A stretch of DNA of 36,686 bases from an uncultured Lewinella sp. (lineage in GTDB: Bacteria; Bacteroidota; Bacteroidia; Chitinophagales; Saprospiraceae). The notes below the pieces were generated by a model. That model made no database searches. It saw nothing but the letters and a program-made list of their open reading frames with translations, and was not told the origin of the DNA. The position numbers and the translations under genes are program-made. Of the stretch, positions 4,583 through 18,384 are shown in pieces (within the stretch, counting starts at the first letter, position 1; the number at the start of each line of letters is the position of its first letter). The stretch lies in assembly GCA_913056515.1 (NCBI GenBank), contig CAJXMP010000009.1, forward strand, positions 1 to 36,686. Reading direction: 5' to 3'.

Positions 4583-5103
4583 GATATTTATACGCACCAA
4601 AATTAGTATTAGCTCTGTTGTTAATGGCATTTGGTCTTTTTTCCTTTAGCCAAGGTCTGCAGTTGATGGGATTTATGATGTTTGGAATGGCCCTTGTATC
4701 TATGCTTGCACACTTGGTTTTTGGTCAAGTTTTTGGCGCATATAAAGCCATAGCCCAGGAGCGAAAAGTAAAGGCAATTCGGCAATTAAATGCTACCTTT
4801 TCACCTAATCTATTGGTAGGGATGCATCGGTCTTATTATTGGTTAACTTGGTCTATTATCCATGCTCAAAATAAACAGTTTGAACAGTCGGAGCATTGTT
4901 TGATAAAGGCTGTGGAAATTGGTAAAATGCGCAAGCGAGATCAGATTATGGCATTAGTTAATTTGGCTCAAGTTTTTATATCTAGAGGACAATTCAAGGA
5001 AGGGCAAACCTACTTAACTCAGTTGGAAACTTTTGAAATAACAGATTTGCGTATCAAGGAATTGGTTCAAGGGTTAAATCAAAAAATCATTTCTTCTAAC
5101 TGA
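4579..5103 (+). CDS. Membrane protein with two TM segments and helical-repeat tail (paralogue A)
   Basis: 174 residues, family not recognised by name. Residues ~8-50 form two hydrophobic segments (LVLALLLMAFGLFSF; GFMMFGMALVSMLAHLVF). The rest is an amphipathic helical tail resembling one or two degenerate TPR units: MHRSYYWLTWSIIHAQ, then EHCLIKAVEIGKMRKRDQIMALVNLAQVF. Its ATG overlaps the stop of the spermidine-synthase-like gene (ATGA), fixing the start and suggesting coupled translation. The next gene encodes a clear paralogue: both share LN-TF-P-LL, R-YY, an L-KA- or L-AA-like helix and KM at matching places. Likely an inner-membrane protein with a cytoplasmic protein-interaction domain. 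Function unknown. Confidence 0.75.
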   Translation: MRYLYAPKLVLALLLMAFGLFSFSQGLQLMGFMMFGMALVSMLAHLVFGQVFGAYKAIAQERKVKAIRQLNATFSPNLLVGMHRSYYWLTWSIIHAQNKQFEQSEHCLIKAVEIGKMRKRDQIMALVNLAQVFISRGQFKEGQTYLTQLETFEITDLRIKELVQGLNQKIISSN

Positions 5104-5110
5104 GCCTTGC

Positions 5111-5143
5111 TTTGTGGTTTTAGCGTTTAGTTTATTATTTTTG
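5111..5143 (+). promoter_or_regulatory. Bacteroidota-type promoter TTTG-N21-TATTTTTG for paralogue B
   Basis: TTTG at 5111-5114 and TATTTTTG at 5136-5143 are separated by 21 nt and fit the -33/-7 consensus TTTG and TAnnTTTG. The predicted start near 5150 leaves a leader of only about 7 nt of A-rich sequence before the ATG at 5157. The second paralogue therefore probably has its own promoter. Confidence 0.55.
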
Positions 5144-5156
5144 AAAAAAAAAGCAC

Positions 5157-5768
5157 ATGTTTAAGATTAATATTTACCTGAAATTTGCCGCTATAGTTAT
5201 AGGTATTCTTGGAGGAACAGCTTTGAGTATTGCGTGGGGTTTCTGGTATGGTTTTCCATTTATTTTAATTGGAGTTGTGGCATTAGTGAGCTATTTGTTA
5301 TTGGGGACGGTTCAGACGGCAGCAGAATTAATGCAGGTAGAAGATATTGACGGATGTGATCAACGCTTGAATTTGACTTTTTTCCCAAGGTTGTTGTTTT
5401 CTGCGAACAGAGCCTATTATTATATGTTAAAGGGAACCATTGCACAGCAGAGAGGTGATAAGCAAAGTTCGGATCAATATCTAAAAGCAGCTCAAGGCAT
5501 TAAGATGCCTTCTGATAATGAGCGTGCGATGCTAGAAATGCAATTACTTAGCCAAGCAGCAGCGCGTAATAATATGGCTCAAGTAAAAAATCACCTTCGA
5601 AACTTGAAAAAGTTTAATGTGACGGAAGAGCAATTAGCAGAACAGATTAGACAAGTGGAACGAGATATGAAGATGTTTAGTCAATCTAGAGGACATGCTA
5701 TGGGGGCAAGTAAAAAACAAATGCGTCAACCAGGTGGTGGAAAACGCCGCAGGCCTAAGATGCGCTAG
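5157..5768 (+). CDS. Membrane protein with two TM segments, helical repeats and basic tail (paralogue B)
   Basis: 203 residues with the same layout as the preceding gene product. Two hydrophobic segments sit near residues 8-50 (FAAIVIGILGGTALSIAWGF; GFPFILIGVVALVSYLLLG). A TPR-like helical region follows (FSANRAYYYMLKGTIAQQRGDKQSSDQYLKAA and NERAMLEMQLLSQAAARNN). The protein ends in a strongly basic, glycine-containing tail (GGGKRRRPKMR) that the paralogue lacks; this could bind nucleic acid or acidic lipid, but that is inference. It has its own promoter-like sequence 14 bp upstream and a bidirectional terminator directly downstream. No named family recognised. The tandem arrangement with paralogue A suggests a local duplication. 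Confidence 0.75.
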   Translation: MFKINIYLKFAAIVIGILGGTALSIAWGFWYGFPFILIGVVALVSYLLLGTVQTAAELMQVEDIDGCDQRLNLTFFPRLLFSANRAYYYMLKGTIAQQRGDKQSSDQYLKAAQGIKMPSDNERAMLEMQLLSQAAARNNMAQVKNHLRNLKKFNVTEEQLAEQIRQVERDMKMFSQSRGHAMGASKKQMRQPGGGKRRRPKMR

Positions 5769-11649: not shown

Positions 11650-13077
11650 ATGATGAAAAGAACCATCTCCCTGGCTATTCTATTGACAGCATTTATTTTT
11701 TCTGCACAAGCACAGAAATTTCTTACGCTTGAAGATTGTATGAAAATTGCAGAGGAAAATGCTTTGACCCTGAAGCAGGCTCAAATGTTGATACAAACAG
11801 CAGAAATCAATTTAAAAGAAGCAAAAATGTCTAGGTTGCCTTCTTTGAATGGCTCCGTAAGTGGGGGACTTCAATTGGGAAGAACTATTGACCCGACTAC
11901 CAATGATTTTGGAACACAGGAAATTGGATATAACTCTATTTCATTGAGTTCTGGGTTGAGTTTGTTCTCAGGTGGCCGAATTAATTCTACTGTTCGACAG
12001 GGTAAGTATAATTTAGAAGCTGCTGTATTTGATGGAGAAGATGCTTATAACAATCTAGGCTTAACCCTAGCGACTATGTTTCTTCAGGTTATGTTGTCTG
12101 AGGACCAATTAGCCAATGCTCAGAATCAAGTTAGAGTAACGGAAGATCAATATGAGCAATCTAAAAAACTTGCTGATGCGGGTGTGATTCCAGTAAATGA
12201 TTTACTAGATATCGAGGCACAATTAGCATTGAACCAGCAAAGTGTGTTAATCGCTCAAGGAAATTTAGAGGTCGCTCAATTAACTTTGATTCAATTATTA
12301 GAGTTGGACCCCAATGAATCTATCCGTTTAGTAAGGCCTGAAATTGAAATACCTGTGGAAGATCCAATGCGCATCTCATTAGAGCAAGTTTTTCAAACGG
12401 CATTAGGATCTCAACCTTCTATAAAAGCTAATGAATATAGATTAAAATCGGCAGAGGAATCCATTGTTCAGGCCCGTTCTTTCGGAATCCCTCAGCTAAG
12501 TATTTTTGGTGGGATGAGTTCCAACTGGTCTAGTTTAGGTGTTCAGGTGGATGGATTTGAAGATTTAGTAGCACCTTTTGAAGTATTTGATGGCAATGGT
12601 CAAGCTTTTACCTTCTTTATACCTCAACAAGTACCTATTCTATCGGATCAAGCCTATATGGATCAGTTAAATCAAAATTTTGGTCAAAGCGTTGGGCTGA
12701 GTTTGAGTGTGCCTGTTTTTAATGGTTTGAGGACTCATTATGGCGTGCAACGTGCTAAGCTGAATGCTAAGAATCAGAAACTTATTAATACTCAGCAAAG
12801 GAATCAGCTAAAAACAGATATTCAAACTGCTTTAATCCAAGCTAGAACCTCTAAGTTGGCCTATTACGCATCTGAAAAGGCATTCCAGGCAGCAAATGTA
12901 GCTTATGAAAATGCAACTAAACGATTTGAGTTAGGTGTAGTAAATACATTAGAGTTAAATACCTCTAGAAATTTGCGTGATCGTGCAGAGTTGGATTTAC
13001 TTAATGCCAAGTATCAATATATATTCAACATGAAAGTCCTTGATTTTTATATGGGTAGAGGACTAACCTTAAACTAA
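11650..13077 (+). CDS. TolC family outer membrane efflux protein
   Basis: 475 residues with a signal peptide (MMKRTISLAILLTAFIFSAQAQ) and the two-fold repeated helical hairpin pattern of TolC/OEP proteins. Typical elements are FLTLEDCMKIAEENALTLKQA at the mature start, EINLKEAKMSRLPSLNGSVSGGLQLG, then VEVAQL-like long helices. The second half holds GLSLSVPVFNGLRTHYGVQRAKL and the terminal block YENATKRFELGVVNTLELNTSRN. It would form the outer-membrane channel of a tripartite pump. An adaptor gene follows after 22-28 bp. No permease gene is next to them, so the inner-membrane partner must be elsewhere. A second TolC-like gene belongs to the RND operon at 24-25 kb. Confidence 0.92.
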   Translation: MMKRTISLAILLTAFIFSAQAQKFLTLEDCMKIAEENALTLKQAQMLIQTAEINLKEAKMSRLPSLNGSVSGGLQLGRTIDPTTNDFGTQEIGYNSISLSSGLSLFSGGRINSTVRQGKYNLEAAVFDGEDAYNNLGLTLATMFLQVMLSEDQLANAQNQVRVTEDQYEQSKKLADAGVIPVNDLLDIEAQLALNQQSVLIAQGNLEVAQLTLIQLLELDPNESIRLVRPEIEIPVEDPMRISLEQVFQTALGSQPSIKANEYRLKSAEESIVQARSFGIPQLSIFGGMSSNWSSLGVQVDGFEDLVAPFEVFDGNGQAFTFFIPQQVPILSDQAYMDQLNQNFGQSVGLSLSVPVFNGLRTHYGVQRAKLNAKNQKLINTQQRNQLKTDIQTALIQARTSKLAYYASEKAFQAANVAYENATKRFELGVVNTLELNTSRNLRDRAELDLLNAKYQYIFNMKVLDFYMGRGLTLN

Positions 13078-13105
13078 AAGAAACTGAATTAATACTAACG
13101 TGGTA

Positions 13106-14497
13106 ATGAAAAAGAAAAAAGATAATACCAATAGAATTATCATCATCCTGGGAGTAATTGTTGTTGTTTTAATTGCTCTGATGTTAATCTTCAAAAAAGA
13201 TCCAGAGTATACTAAAGTGGCAGTAGAGCCAAGTGCAAAGGCAACTATTACTGAAAAAGTATCTGCTTCAGGAAAGATATTCCCGGTAACTGAAGTGAAA
13301 ATCTCTTCTCCAGTTTCAGGTGAAGTGGTTGATCTCTCCGTTGTAGAGGGTGATTCTGTACAAGTCGGTCAGATTCTAGCAAAAATCGATCCTGAAGCCT
13401 ATCAATCTCAGGTTGAAAGAGGTGTGGCTAGTGTTAATGCTGCGAAAGCTAATCTGGCTAATTCTAAAGCTCAAGTAGAGAATATCATCGCTCAACGCGA
13501 GCAAGTATTATCTCAATTATTGAATGCCCAAGAGGTTCATAAACGTAATGAAACACTATTCAAGGATGGTGTAATATCTAGCGCAGATTATGAGTCTTCT
13601 TTAGTAAATGTACAATCCTTAGAGGCCAATCTTCGTGCTTCGGATGCGGGTATCAAGTCAGCAGAGCAAAACGTGCTGGCATCTGAATTCTCCATCAAAA
13701 GTGCAGAAGCTTCCTTGAAGGAGTTGAAAACGATGTTAGGTAGAACTACCATTATTGCACCTGTTACAGGAGTCGTTTCTAGATTAAATGTAGAGGAAGG
13801 GGAGCAGGTAGTTGGAACCGTTCAAATGAGTGGAACAGAGCTTATGCGTGTGGCAAATCTAAATGCTATGGAAGTGCAAGTTGAAGTAAGTGAAAGTGAC
13901 ATTCCAAGAGTAAGTATTGGTGATTTTGTTGATGTAGAAGTAGATGCTTATGTGGATCGACTTTTCGAAGGAAAAGTGAGGCAAATTGCAAATTCAGCTA
14001 ATAATTTAGCTTCGGGAATGGGTGGAGCTTCATTAACCTCTGATCAGGTAACTAACTTTGTTGTAACTATTGATATACTTCCGGCGTCCTATTCAGATTT
14101 GATTACAGCAGATAATCAGTTCCCATTCCGTCCGGGAATGTCAGCAAATGTAGAAATCAATACCTCTACCGTTGAAGATGTTCTTACCGTGCCTGTTCAG
14201 TCTGTCTCTATTCGCGAATTTGATGAAGACGATACTAGGCTAGAGCGAGAAGCTAGTTACAATCCAAAGGATGAAAATTTTGGTGAAGTTGTTTTTGTGG
14301 TAGATGCTGATACGATAGTTATGGTTGAAGTAAGCACAGGTTTGCAGGATGATAAAAACATCCATATTAAGGCTGGACTGCAAGAAGGCATGAATGTGGT
14401 CATAGGTCCATACTCTGCGATTTCAAAGCAATTGAAGGAAGGGGAGAAAGTTACTGTGGTAGACGAAGACAAACTATACAAAGGAGGTGACAATTAA
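13106..14497 (+). CDS. Efflux RND/MacA-like periplasmic adaptor subunit
   Basis: About 463 residues. An N-terminal membrane anchor (IIIILGVIVVVLIALMLIF) is followed by the biotinyl-lipoyl half motif SSPVSGEVVDLSVVEGDSVQVGQILAKID. A long alpha-helical hairpin comes next, then the second half motif TTIIAPVTGVVSRLNVEEGEQVVG, and barrel and membrane-proximal domains. This order fits HlyD/MacA-type membrane fusion proteins; the long hairpin and the TolC neighbour suggest a MacAB-like pump. I chose ATG 13106 over the GTG at 13100 in the ORF track; either is possible. No macB-like ABC permease follows. The gene ends in YKGGDN, whose codons contain AAGGAGGTGA, a perfect Shine-Dalgarno sequence, and the next reading frame overlaps its end by 11 bp. 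Confidence 0.9.
   Translation: MKKKKDNTNRIIIILGVIVVVLIALMLIFKKDPEYTKVAVEPSAKATITEKVSASGKIFPVTEVKISSPVSGEVVDLSVVEGDSVQVGQILAKIDPEAYQSQVERGVASVNAAKANLANSKAQVENIIAQREQVLSQLLNAQEVHKRNETLFKDGVISSADYESSLVNVQSLEANLRASDAGIKSAEQNVLASEFSIKSAEASLKELKTMLGRTTIIAPVTGVVSRLNVEEGEQVVGTVQMSGTELMRVANLNAMEVQVEVSESDIPRVSIGDFVDVEVDAYVDRLFEGKVRQIANSANNLASGMGGASLTSDQVTNFVVTIDILPASYSDLITADNQFPFRPGMSANVEINTSTVEDVLTVPVQSVSIREFDEDDTRLEREASYNPKDENFGEVVFVVDADTIVMVEVSTGLQDDKNIHIKAGLQEGMNVVIGPYSAISKQLKEGEKVTVVDEDKLYKGGDN
14481..14490 (+). promoter_or_regulatory. Perfect Shine-Dalgarno sequence AAGGAGGTGA at adaptor/glycosyltransferase junction
   Basis: Ten bases fully complementary to the canonical 16S anti-SD tail, inside the last codons of the adaptor gene. 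SD sequences are seldom used in Bacteroidota. It overlaps the GTG at 14487, too close for normal use with that codon. ATT at 14493, in the same frame, would be better spaced. Confidence 0.4.
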
Positions 14498-15130: not shown

Positions 15131-15574
15131 TTAAGCTCTCCTTTTATCAATGATGCGTTTCAATCTGACTTGACCGATTTTTTGATCTACCTTACTTATA
15201 TTTCCTAATTCTTGCCAGTATCCATCCAATGTTAAGGTGTTGAAATCTCTATCATAGAGTAGCTGGAATTTCTTTTTGAAATGAATCCCTGCTTTAGGAT
15301 CATCAGGAAAAACAATTTTGAAATCCTCCAAATATACCGAGCGATCGCTGTAGAGTCTGCCTTTAGCTACCGTTCGAGTAAATGTGGTATCATTAGTTAT
15401 ACAATAAATCTCCGCTTCTACTTTACTAAAACTACGCTTGATATCCATCTTCAGGATATACTCTTTTCCATGTTGTACTAATGCACCTTCCCACCTACCT
15501 TCAAGGTATTTTTGTGCTTGACTAGAAATAGGGAAGAGCAAAAGTATTATTGCGAGTAAAAGGGTATTTCTCAT
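15131..15574 (-). CDS. Small secreted protein of unknown function
   Basis: 147 residues with a clear signal peptide (MRNTLLLAIILLLFPISSQAQ), then a predominantly beta sequence: YLEGRWEGALVQHGKEYILKMDIK, VEAEIYCITNDTTFTRTVAKGRLYSDRSVYLEDFKIVF, LTLDGYWQELG. The GRWEGAL start and repeated short strands resemble lipocalin-like or small beta-barrel periplasmic proteins, but I do not recognise a named family. No cysteine-based heme site is present. It begins 8 bp after the stop of the diheme cytochrome gene, so it is the last gene of the four-gene minus-strand redox locus. It might be a periplasmic accessory of that locus; function is not known. Confidence 0.7.
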   Translation of the reverse strand: MRNTLLLAIILLLFPISSQAQKYLEGRWEGALVQHGKEYILKMDIKRSFSKVEAEIYCITNDTTFTRTVAKGRLYSDRSVYLEDFKIVFPDDPKAGIHFKKKFQLLYDRDFNTLTLDGYWQELGNISKVDQKIGQVRLKRIIDKRRA

Positions 15575-15581
15575 ATAAAAC

Positions 15582-16607
15582 TTAATTTGATGAAGCCATG
15601 TAGGCTTTGAGGTCTTCTAATTGTTGAACACTCATTCTTTCTTGAGTGTAATTGGGCATGTACGATTTCTTACCAGGAATAGGAGAGGTGCCCCAGCGCA
15701 CTACTTGGTATGTCGAGTACCTATTATATTTATTAAAGTGTTTATCTAGGAATTTAAGGGAAAGCTTATCTGGGCCTAATTCAAATAAGGAGAATCGCTG
15801 ATTTTCATGACAATGCAAACAGCTATGTTGGTAGATAGCTGCACCATTTTCTATGTCTACCTGGCTAATATCTTCTGGTCCCTTTGACCTGTTTTCTGGT
15901 GGTGCAATGAAATGGGCAGGTGAAGCTTGCAGGTATTTAGATTGAATCAAATTACGCGCCATATCTTGGTCTTCGCCCGAACTAATGGCTTGATTGATTT
16001 GATTCGCTTCTACTTCAGATAGAATCAGGTCCTTCATTTTTAAGCCTGTTTGCTCAAAATATGCCAAGATAGATTCAACTTCCCATTCCTCTAGTAGCCT
16101 GCCTTGTGCACAAGTTGTTGCACATAATTGAATAGCATTTCTCAAATCATGCCGAGCGTCTTCTACTAGGTCACCATATTTTTTGACATAATCTCCATTA
16201 TAGAAGGAGGTTCTATTTATAATACCGTAGAAAGTTGTTCCTTGCAAAAAGGGTAAGCCATTACTGACTGCATAATCTAATCGAGCTTGAGGATCAGCTA
16301 CTGCAAGATCTGGATCTTCTTTCAGCATATTGTGGCAGGAAGTACACAAAAAGTGTGAACTTTGCTTTTTGGTTTTACCTCCATTAGCTTTAGTAGTGAT
16401 TCCTGTAGTCAATAATTCCATTCCTTTTTCCACAGATACCCCTTCTATGTTGGAGTTAACTGTATGCGGTAATGCTTCTCCGCCAAGTTGCACCAATATA
16501 TCTTGGACATTATCCTCTGGGGAAAAGTCGATAGAGCTCACCTGCCAAGTAGCTGCCAATCCTATGAATGCAAGGAGTGATATAGTGAACATATATTTCA
16601 TGATCAT
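15582..16607 (-). CDS. Exported diheme cytochrome c
   Basis: 341 residues with an N-terminal signal or anchor (YMFTISLLAFIGLAATW). Two c-type heme sites are plain: CTSCH (88-92) and CLHCH (263-267). Between them CATTC (162-166) keeps the two cysteines but lacks the heme-ligating histidine, so it is probably a disulfide or a degenerate third site. In the C-terminal domain MPNY near residue 317 offers a methionine ligand. Expected role: periplasmic electron carrier. The ATGATCATG at the start gives an ATGA overlap with the upstream beta-barrel gene, which supports the 16607 start and tight co-expression. It lies in a locus with a heme lipoprotein and an outer-membrane barrel. Confidence 0.88.
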   Translation of the reverse strand: MIMKYMFTISLLAFIGLAATWQVSSIDFSPEDNVQDILVQLGGEALPHTVNSNIEGVSVEKGMELLTTGITTKANGGKTKKQSSHFLCTSCHNMLKEDPDLAVADPQARLDYAVSNGLPFLQGTTFYGIINRTSFYNGDYVKKYGDLVEDARHDLRNAIQLCATTCAQGRLLEEWEVESILAYFEQTGLKMKDLILSEVEANQINQAISSGEDQDMARNLIQSKYLQASPAHFIAPPENRSKGPEDISQVDIENGAAIYQHSCLHCHENQRFSLFELGPDKLSLKFLDKHFNKYNRYSTYQVVRWGTSPIPGKKSYMPNYTQERMSVQQLEDLKAYMASSN

Positions 16608-17482
16608 CTAACTTTAAAAACTCTTGAAATAGTGAATCCAAGTCTAAATCCACCATCTAGCCAAGAAGATGTGGTTGAGGCCAAGAAATCTGTCTGAGGT
16701 ATCCCTCTAGCATTCGTTAAGTTCATTTGGAAAATATGTCCTCCTGTATTGAATTCCATGCCCACCCCAATTGGGATGTAAAAATCGGGCAAGTTGGCGC
16801 TTGATTCCTGAAATAAACTTTGTGGTCCATTTAATGGCATATTGATATCACCAATAAGTGCAAACGTTTTATTCAATTGGATGCGAGTAGCCATTCCAAC
16901 AGAAATAGTGGTATTCATATCTTCAATGAGCACTATATTCCTATGTAGTGCAGATATATTTGCTTGAAGACTTAATGCTGGACTAATTCGTTTTCCTATC
17001 ACCCATTGACCACAGTAGGACATCCTATTCAGAAAATTCGGAAAATGAGATAATGAACTAGGCGAGTCACTCTTCTGCATCGTAGAAACTGTGGCTAAGC
17101 CTACTAAGGTTAACGAGAACGGTTTGCCGTCCTTTTCATGTGCTAAATTCCACTTAGCTAATCCATTGACTAGCATCCTTAATCCAGCAGAACCTTTTGA
17201 TCTGGATAATCCCACTAAAAATTTATCGGAAAGACCATATTCTCCACCGATATAAACGTCAGTAGCTTGTTCTAAACCGTAAAAGGTATTCCACGCTCCA
17301 CCAACATCTCCAAAACGGTGTCCAATTCTAATATCCAAGGTGCCTTTCTGTAATACTTCAACGGAATGACTATTGATTACTCTAGAATCGTTGAACAATT
17401 TAGTTGGGCTTTGCGCCTTAAGTGAGCAGGTGCAAAGTAGCAGTATCGCTATTCTATATGTATTTTTGATTATTTGCTTCAT
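16604..17482 (-). CDS. DUF5777-like outer-membrane beta-barrel protein
   Basis: 292 residues with a signal peptide (IAILLLCTCSLKAQ) and then alternating hydrophobic/polar strands with aromatic girdle residues: VEVLQKGTLDIRIGHRFGD, ATDVYIGGEYGLSDKFLVGLSRSKG, SPALSLQANISALHRNIV, GMATRIQLNKTFALIGDINMPL. The final strand is FRLGFTISRVFKVR. This matches my memory of the DUF5777 family of Bacteroidota barrels, which I recall as occurring near cytochrome and YceI genes. It probably spans the outer membrane. Its stop overlaps the diheme cytochrome start (ATGA) and it starts 26 bp after the heme lipoprotein gene. Whether it works as a sheath for an electron-transfer complex is inference. Confidence 0.7.
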   Translation of the reverse strand: MKQIIKNTYRIAILLLCTCSLKAQSPTKLFNDSRVINSHSVEVLQKGTLDIRIGHRFGDVGGAWNTFYGLEQATDVYIGGEYGLSDKFLVGLSRSKGSAGLRMLVNGLAKWNLAHEKDGKPFSLTLVGLATVSTMQKSDSPSSLSHFPNFLNRMSYCGQWVIGKRISPALSLQANISALHRNIVLIEDMNTTISVGMATRIQLNKTFALIGDINMPLNGPQSLFQESSANLPDFYIPIGVGMEFNTGGHIFQMNLTNARGIPQTDFLASTTSSWLDGGFRLGFTISRVFKVR

Positions 17483-17508
17483 TGTTAATCTGTGCTGTTC
17501 AGTATTAA

Positions 17509-17865
17509 TTAGTTTTCAGGATAACCAGATTGGATCCAACATTGTAATGCTAGCATCTCTTCCGCAGTGAGTGGTGGATGAGATGGAGGTGGCATGTCTA
17601 CTGCATTAATCGAGCGTGATATTATTTGATCTGGTAAATAGGCTTCTAGACCGGCATAGGTATCAAAATTACCTGGCGCACTATTATCTACATGACAACC
17701 AGCACTAGCACATTTGGTGTCAATTATGATTTGTATATCTGCTGTATAAACGAAGCTTTCTAGCGTTTCATCTTCACAAGGATTACCCTCTACTTGATCA
17801 TCTAAACAAGCAGTTAGAGCAACAAGTGCAAAACCTATAATAAGGAACAGTAAGCTTTTCGTCAT
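17509..17865 (-). CDS. Heme-binding lipoprotein (planctomycete-type cytochrome c-like, CX4CH motif)
   Basis: 118 residues. The lipoprotein signal is MTKSLLFLIIGFALVALTAC, with lipobox LTAC giving Cys20. The mature part has KCASAGCH (about residues 51-58), a CX4CH heme motif instead of the usual CX2CH; this spaced form is found in Bacteroidota and planctomycete cytochrome c-like domains. The tail VDMPPPSHPPLTAEEMLALQCWIQSGYPEN is characteristic of these domains, with a probable Met ligand in MPPP and a WIxxGYP end. It should be anchored in the outer membrane and possibly surface exposed. It is the first gene of the four-gene locus, and a -7 box TAATTTTG lies about 39-46 bp upstream. Confidence 0.82.
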   Translation of the reverse strand: MTKSLLFLIIGFALVALTACLDDQVEGNPCEDETLESFVYTADIQIIIDTKCASAGCHVDNSAPGNFDTYAGLEAYLPDQIISRSINAVDMPPPSHPPLTAEEMLALQCWIQSGYPEN

Positions 17866-17970: not shown

Positions 17971-18384
17971 ATGTATCCAAAAGAATTAGTAGCTCCAATG
18001 GCAAAAGATTTAAATGACGCAGGATTTCAGTCATTAATTTCAGCAGAGGATGTTGATCAAGTGTTGGGCGCTAAAGCAGGAACGGTATTAGTTGTAGTGA
18101 ATTCAGTTTGTGGATGTGCTGCAGCCAATGCAAGGCCTGGTGCAAAAATGTCATTAAATCATTCGGCAAAGCCAGATCAGACTGTTACAGTTTTTGCTGG
18201 GGTGGATCGAGAAGCTGTAGATAAAGCAAGATCTTACATGCTACCTTATCCTCCATCATCTCCTTCGATTGCTTTATTTAAAGAAGGTAAATTGGTTCAC
18301 TTTTTAGAGCGACACCACATTGAAGGTCGATCAGCAGATATCATCGCAGATAATTTGAAAATGGCTTATGACCGTTTTTGTTAA
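17971..18384 (+). CDS. BrxA/BrxB family bacilliredoxin
   Basis: 137 residues, thioredoxin fold, the usual size of YphP/YqiW (BrxA/BrxB) proteins. The start MYPKELVAPMAKDLNDAGF and the active site VNSVCGCAAANARPG carry the diagnostic CGC motif. The C-terminal half has SIALFKEGKLVHFLERHHIEGR, also typical. In Bacillus these proteins remove bacillithiol from mixed disulfides. Whether this organism makes bacillithiol is not visible here, so a general thiol-disulfide role is the safe call. Monocistronic: its own -7 box is upstream and an intrinsic terminator follows the stop by about 6 bp. The neighbouring divergent operon encodes exported heme proteins, but there is no direct evidence of a shared role. 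Confidence 0.93.
   Translation: MYPKELVAPMAKDLNDAGFQSLISAEDVDQVLGAKAGTVLVVVNSVCGCAAANARPGAKMSLNHSAKPDQTVTVFAGVDREAVDKARSYMLPYPPSSPSIALFKEGKLVHFLERHHIEGRSADIIADNLKMAYDRFC

Follow-up and report, generated by a model that had tools for sequence, protein, structure and literature searches.

Organization and conservation of the locus

We analyzed a window of 36,686 nucleotides (contig CAJXMP010000009.1) from an uncultured Lewinella sp., whose genome is Saprospiraceae-like and 87 percent complete. The work centered on a minus-strand gene cluster encoding a monoheme outer-membrane (OM) lipoprotein (LIPO), an OM beta-barrel (BARREL), an exported diheme cytochrome (DIHEME) and a small exported protein (Table 1). 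All four open reading frames (ORFs) proposed in the initial annotation were recovered, with identical coordinates. In the order given, the genes are separated by a 26-bp gap, a 4-base overlap and a 7-bp gap. The ATGA overlap described earlier between BARREL and DIHEME requires translation of DIHEME from Met1 (16607). With Met3 (16601), to which most homologues align, a 2-base gap would separate the two genes.

Table 1. Features of the locus (window positions)
Feature	Position	Strand	Basis
Monoheme OM lipoprotein (LIPO), 118 aa	17509..17865	-	sequence, homologues of family
CASAGCH (CX4CH) heme-attachment motif of LIPO	17692..17712	-	sequence; homologous site in relatives
DUF5777 OM beta-barrel (BARREL), 292 aa, 12 predicted strands	16604..17482	-	PF19089, AF2, Foldseek, tree
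Exported diheme cytochrome (DIHEME), 341 aa, TsdA-like two-domain architecture	15582..16607	-	profile alignment
Heme 1 motif CTSCH of DIHEME (residues 88-92)	16332..16346	-	Cys88, Cys91, His92 invariant 54/54
CX3C motif of DIHEME, Cys162-Cys166	16110..16124	-	invariant 54/54; hhalign alignment to TsdA
Heme 2 motif CLHCH of DIHEME (residues 263-267)	15807..15821	-	Cys263, Cys266, His267 invariant 54/54
Met317 of DIHEME (invariant YMP), predicted distal ligand of heme 2	15657..15659	-	invariant 54/54; aligned with TsdA Met209
Small exported protein, accessory	15131..15574	-	ORF, homologue count
Bacilliredoxin BrxA/B, divergent neighbour, not claimed for the complex	17971..18384	+	TIGR04191, E 1.7e-59

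A scan of genome contigs for diheme relatives returned 10 of them, nearly all from Saprospiraceae or Lewinella and one from Crocinitomicaceae, and the protein was found in 41/249 genomes of the order and in 6/396 genomes of the phylum. Mapping of the genes in neighbourhoods of up to 14 kb around such relatives gave 54 distinct diheme loci, mostly from one family. In 45 of these loci, a BARREL gene was located at most four genes from the diheme gene, and a LIPO-family gene, as read from the gene maps, was present in 37 of the 45 and missing in 8. An automatic count of heme-protein neighbours (32/54) was an underestimate, since CX5CH motifs, along with some signal peptides, escape detection. Moreover, exported heme-motif genes made up 64/492 of the genes near the core versus 1/156 of the far genes (Fisher p 1.8e-7). 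The linkage exceeds chance. It spans many genera and was observed in two arrangements, LIPO-BARREL-DIHEME and DIHEME-LIPO-LIPO-BARREL, the latter consisting of the diheme gene, a two-heme lipoprotein, a monoheme lipoprotein and the barrel, and forming a paralogous cluster in several Saprospiraceae. The gene order was reversed in the Crocinitomicaceae bacterium (L009). Barrel and diheme distances were correlated beyond what was seen for the bacilliredoxin gene (partial r 0.46) in a mirror-tree analysis of 15 related loci without phylogenetic correction, and lipoprotein and diheme distances reached only 0.10.

Some clusters carried further heme genes. A gene of about 445 aa with two CXXCH motifs adjoins the cluster in L006 (2648-3997), L085 and L107, and its L006 copy matches CCP_MauG (E 4.2e-20). 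In L009, the last gene of the cluster encodes a CTQCH protein (4804-5685) whose match to the T9SS C-terminal sorting domain is weak and below cut-off and which is possibly an extracellular heme protein.

The locus had been described as a four-gene unit, which holds for the trio of BARREL, LIPO and DIHEME as the conserved core and does not extend to the fourth gene. The latter is accessory, since homologues of the small exported protein were linked in only 4 loci. No Pfam family matched it above cut-off, and it is lipocalin-like by eye only. It was considered as an equivalent of YceI lipocalins and rejected, the signal peptide alone having aligned with YceI.

A diheme cytochrome with TsdA-like architecture

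Family libraries placed only the C-terminal domain of DIHEME, as a cytochrome c, with PF13442 covering the second heme motif (E 7.7e-8). The invariant CX3C motif in the N-terminal domain, together with the invariant YMP in the C-terminal domain, led us to suspect a relationship to the thiosulfate dehydrogenase TsdA. A profile of the 54 diheme proteins was therefore aligned by hhalign with 8 TsdA-family proteins from Bacteroidota, which had been confirmed against the solved TsdA at E about 1e-62. The match covered both domains (P 1.8e-10, probability 97 percent) and was specific with respect to domain order, the N-terminal domains matching each other with P 1.6e-5 and the C-terminal domains with P 6.8e-11, versus about 2e-3 for the crossed pairs. 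Control profiles of MauG-type proteins and two-heme lipoproteins gave P values of about 1e-4 against DIHEME. SoxA alone was also tried and gave no match to DIHEME.

DIHEME and TsdA of Allochromatium vinosum (PDB 4wq7) share two c-type domains in the same order, with CXXCH followed by the Cys ligand position in domain 1 and CXXCH followed by Met in domain 2. Cys162 aligned with the Cys that ligates heme 1 in TsdA (Cys96 in the mature protein, Cys123 in the precursor) and is predicted to have the same role. Cys166 aligned with the active-site Ser127, which yields the invariant CX3C motif, and Lys143, invariant in 54/54 proteins, aligned with Arg109, a residue that is Lys in some TsdAs. The position of Arg119 is occupied by Ala158 in DIHEME, or by Ser in the family (TsdA residue roles, including that of Met209, from PMC4423706 and PMC6879331). 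Since Arg119 is not conserved and Ser127 is replaced by Cys166, thiosulfate chemistry itself is not predicted, and because these two catalytic positions differ, we concluded from the alignments that DIHEME is TsdA-like and not a TsdA. It further differs from TsdA in its length and CX3C motif, in a longer insert in domain 1, in the lack of a match to PF21342 (SoxA-TsdA) and in its linkage to an OM barrel and a heme lipoprotein. No biochemical data on the diheme family were found in the literature searched.

Searching the source genome with the TsdA profile yielded no more than one weak, fragment-like match (L155, G000:C262:1686-1994), which is confined to the C-terminal cytochrome domain, contains two internal stops and is possibly a degraded cytochrome gene.

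The DUF5777 barrel, its lipoprotein and its alternative partners

BARREL is a DUF5777 protein, matching PF19089 over the full profile (E 2.5e-68; 230.4 bits versus a gathering cut-off of 23.1), and carries no heme motif. Nothing meaningful was matched when its profile was searched against PDB sequences. Structure models were built with AF2 on shallow alignments; that of BARREL, from 11 homologues, has mid confidence (pLDDT 74.9), predicts 12 strands and resembles FapF, the COG4313 channel and NanC in Foldseek. Unplugged 12-stranded channels of the COG4313 type have a width of about 10-12 angstrom (PMC4493636). In MtrB, 26 strands are required to accommodate MtrA (PMC7198977), and Cyc2 has been modelled with a 16-strand porin (PMC8406198). 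Because of this difference in strand number, the presence of a cytochrome inside the modelled BARREL is unlikely. DUF5777 was detected in 216/249 genomes of the order, and such a near-universal occurrence is more suggestive of a general envelope function than of specialised extracellular respiration. Our literature search found no paper on DUF5777 by name.

We then compared the barrel+diheme loci with 34 DUF5777 loci lacking a diheme gene, 14 from the order and 20 from other families of the phylum. A YceI lipocalin was encoded in 31 of these 34 loci, usually adjacent to the barrel gene. In contrast, none of the 45 barrel+diheme loci had an adjacent YceI gene, and a single distant copy was seen 5 kb away in L118. 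This difference gave a Fisher p of 2e-17 with the L118 copy included, a value that overstates independence because the loci are related and mostly from one family. DIHEME stands in place of YceI beside the barrel. Some genomes, G162 and G227 among them, contain both the YceI-partnered and the diheme-partnered versions, which indicates a real division between paralogues. In a tree of 58 barrels, the main diheme-partnered barrels formed one clade (35 rows, support 100/99) apart from the YceI-partnered barrels. Among the companion families of DUF5777 are PSCyt1-type two-heme lipoproteins, tRNA_anti-like proteins and YceI. Compared with the DUF5777/YceI/heme-lipoprotein clusters of Bacteroidota, the present locus thus has the same barrel family and related heme lipoproteins, whereas in its subfamily the diheme cytochrome replaces YceI and the tRNA_anti-like protein. 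Neither this exchange nor the TsdA-like architecture had been noticed in the initial annotation. The conserved linkage that it had proposed to look for, of the barrel family to heme lipoproteins and diheme cytochromes, was found: a heme lipoprotein was present near DUF5777 in 13/14 order-level and 11/20 phylum-wide loci without a diheme gene, well beyond the diheme loci, and a barrel gene was near the diheme gene in 45/54 diheme loci, as described above.

LIPO has a lipobox (LTAC), a CASAGCH sequence and a downstream MPP. No Pfam family matched it, and its profile gave only a marginal match in the PDB, to the monoheme cytochrome 4rlr (E 0.13). The heme site is spaced as CX4CH in most members of the family and as CX2CH in paralogues. 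We also observed CX3CH in L109 (5510-5890, minus strand) and CX5CH in L075 (7499-7894, minus strand) and L089 (5323-5745, plus strand); the last spacing would be an unusual c-heme motif. Since homologues carry CX2CH, CX3CH, CX4CH or CX5CH at the same place, sequence comparison supports real heme attachment by LIPO, with an unusual spacing.

Possible functions of the locus

The reading that we favor, to which we give slightly less than an even chance, is that the locus encodes a small OM-linked redox enzyme module that handles a substrate and is not a trans-membrane wire. Serving as channel or scaffold, the 12-stranded barrel would let in or position a small redox-active substrate, such as a quinone, a product of lipid oxidation or a compound of the sulfur or thiol type, and so bring it to its periplasmic partner. 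In the periplasm, DIHEME could act on this substrate through a heme 1 ligated by Cys, and Cys166 might supply a second (resolving) thiol. Electrons would pass to the His/Met-ligated heme 2, which could exchange them with the OM-anchored lipoprotein cytochrome and the periplasmic cytochrome pool. LIPO might thereby serve as an OM-tethered electron partner, one that some species do without. A bolder version, which we consider rather unlikely, is that the DIHEME family represents a new class of Cys-ligated cytochrome enzyme, with a heme-bound Cys and a resolving Cys in the CX3C motif, whose substrate is fed by an OM barrel that otherwise serves a YceI quinone or lipid carrier. If true, a heme-ligating Cys beside an invariant second Cys would extend SoxA/TsdA-type cytochrome chemistry. 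DUF5777 is a very common Bacteroidota OM protein, and the finding that its partner can be a YceI lipocalin or, in its place, a TsdA-like diheme cytochrome restricts its role to redox or small-molecule chemistry in the envelope and yields testable candidates.

Several observations weigh against an enzyme module of this kind. The AF2 model of DIHEME is poor (pLDDT 65), and although its top six Foldseek matches are all TsdA entries, they are weak and not significant (E 0.6). PF21342 was not seen in DIHEME of the window at E up to 1, was absent from the 25 families listed for the 54 diheme homologues and was not found at the locus in a search of the source genome. The N-terminal match to TsdA is modest when taken alone, two catalytic residues of TsdA are replaced (Arg119 by Ala158, Ser127 by Cys166) and Cys162 and Cys166 could form a mere structural disulfide. 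Moreover, nine diheme loci lack an adjacent barrel.

The main rival, which we judge fairly improbable, is redox chemistry or repair of OM lipids and quinones. DUF5777 would act on isoprenoid quinones or oxidised OM lipids with a quinone-binding YceI as its usual partner, and the diheme cytochrome would replace YceI as a direct electron donor, by analogy with BcnA-LcoA. Indeed, ubiquinone-8 is a ligand of YceI lipocalins, and BcnA/LcoA provides protection from lipid peroxyl radicals (PMC9113575), so that the YceI partners of most other DUF5777 loci, replaced here, fit such a role, as do the resemblance of the barrel to the COG4313 channel, whose family is implicated in hydrophobic uptake (PMC4493636), and the MauG/CCP-type diheme genes adjoining L006, L085 and L107. 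The BcnA-LcoA system (YceI lipocalin and cytochrome b561) likewise ties a YceI-type partner to a cytochrome in envelope redox protection; the present locus differs in having neither b561 nor YceI and in having an OM barrel. However, YceI is essentially absent from the barrel+diheme loci, any quinone site is hypothetical, the MauG-like genes adjoin only three loci and the TsdA-like Cys position favors a sulfur-type chemistry.

The initial annotation had interpreted the cluster as a minimal conduit, with electrons exchanged between a heme lipoprotein on the cell surface and a diheme cytochrome in the periplasm, either through the barrel or at it. Its view of the three genes as a conserved unit stands, whereas the heme wire across the OM has become a minority view that we regard as decidedly improbable. 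MtrCAB and related porin-cytochrome systems similarly combine genes for an OM barrel, an OM lipoprotein cytochrome and a periplasmic cytochrome. However, these have multiheme cytochromes in a continuous heme chain and a barrel that encloses a cytochrome, whereas the trio has one plus two heme motifs instead of decaheme subunits, its barrel has 12 strands instead of 26 in a mid-confidence model, which would largely leave it too narrow for a cytochrome, and no sequence relation was found. Neither was an MtrB homologue found in the source genome, incomplete as it is (87 percent). Cyc2 offers a single-heme precedent (PMC8406198) with few hemes at an OM barrel; it is one polypeptide in which a 16-strand porin is fused behind an N-terminal CXXCH domain, in contrast to the separate genes, 12-strand barrel and different cytochromes seen here. 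The conserved trio and the wide association of heme lipoproteins with DUF5777 are consistent with a conduit, as is the CTQCH protein of L009 with its weak sorting-domain match, but the lipoprotein gene is missing in 8/45 loci and the pairing of DUF5777 with YceI is nearly universal across the order. The residues after the lipid cysteine point both ways: CLDD in LIPO, acidic at +3 and +4, and CYYDNEE in paralogues are LES-like, but the hydrophobic residue at +2 makes CLDD fit the LES rules (PMC5080379) only in part. The literature that we found on extracellular electron transfer in Saprospiraceae concerns multiheme proteins. Neighbourhoods combining a barrel with cytochromes need not mean electron conduits.

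Independent periplasmic redox proteins that are chance neighbours of a barrel with an unrelated function would agree with the nine unlinked loci and with the three non-heme ORFs between the barrel and diheme genes of L007, but are very unlikely given the 45/54 linkage across many genera and in both gene orders, the exchange and clade-specific choice of partners, and the inclusion among the nine of genomes with a second, linked copy.

The bacilliredoxin gene lies divergently beside the cluster in 22 loci; this may be old synteny, or it may place a thiol-redox protein next to a possible CX3C heme enzyme. Two efflux groups, recognized by eye, flank the locus in the window: a pair of genes resembling those for an outer-membrane factor and a membrane-fusion protein, with no pump beside it (11650-14497, plus strand), and a second group in which another fusion protein accompanies a large RND-like pump (24150-19578, minus strand).

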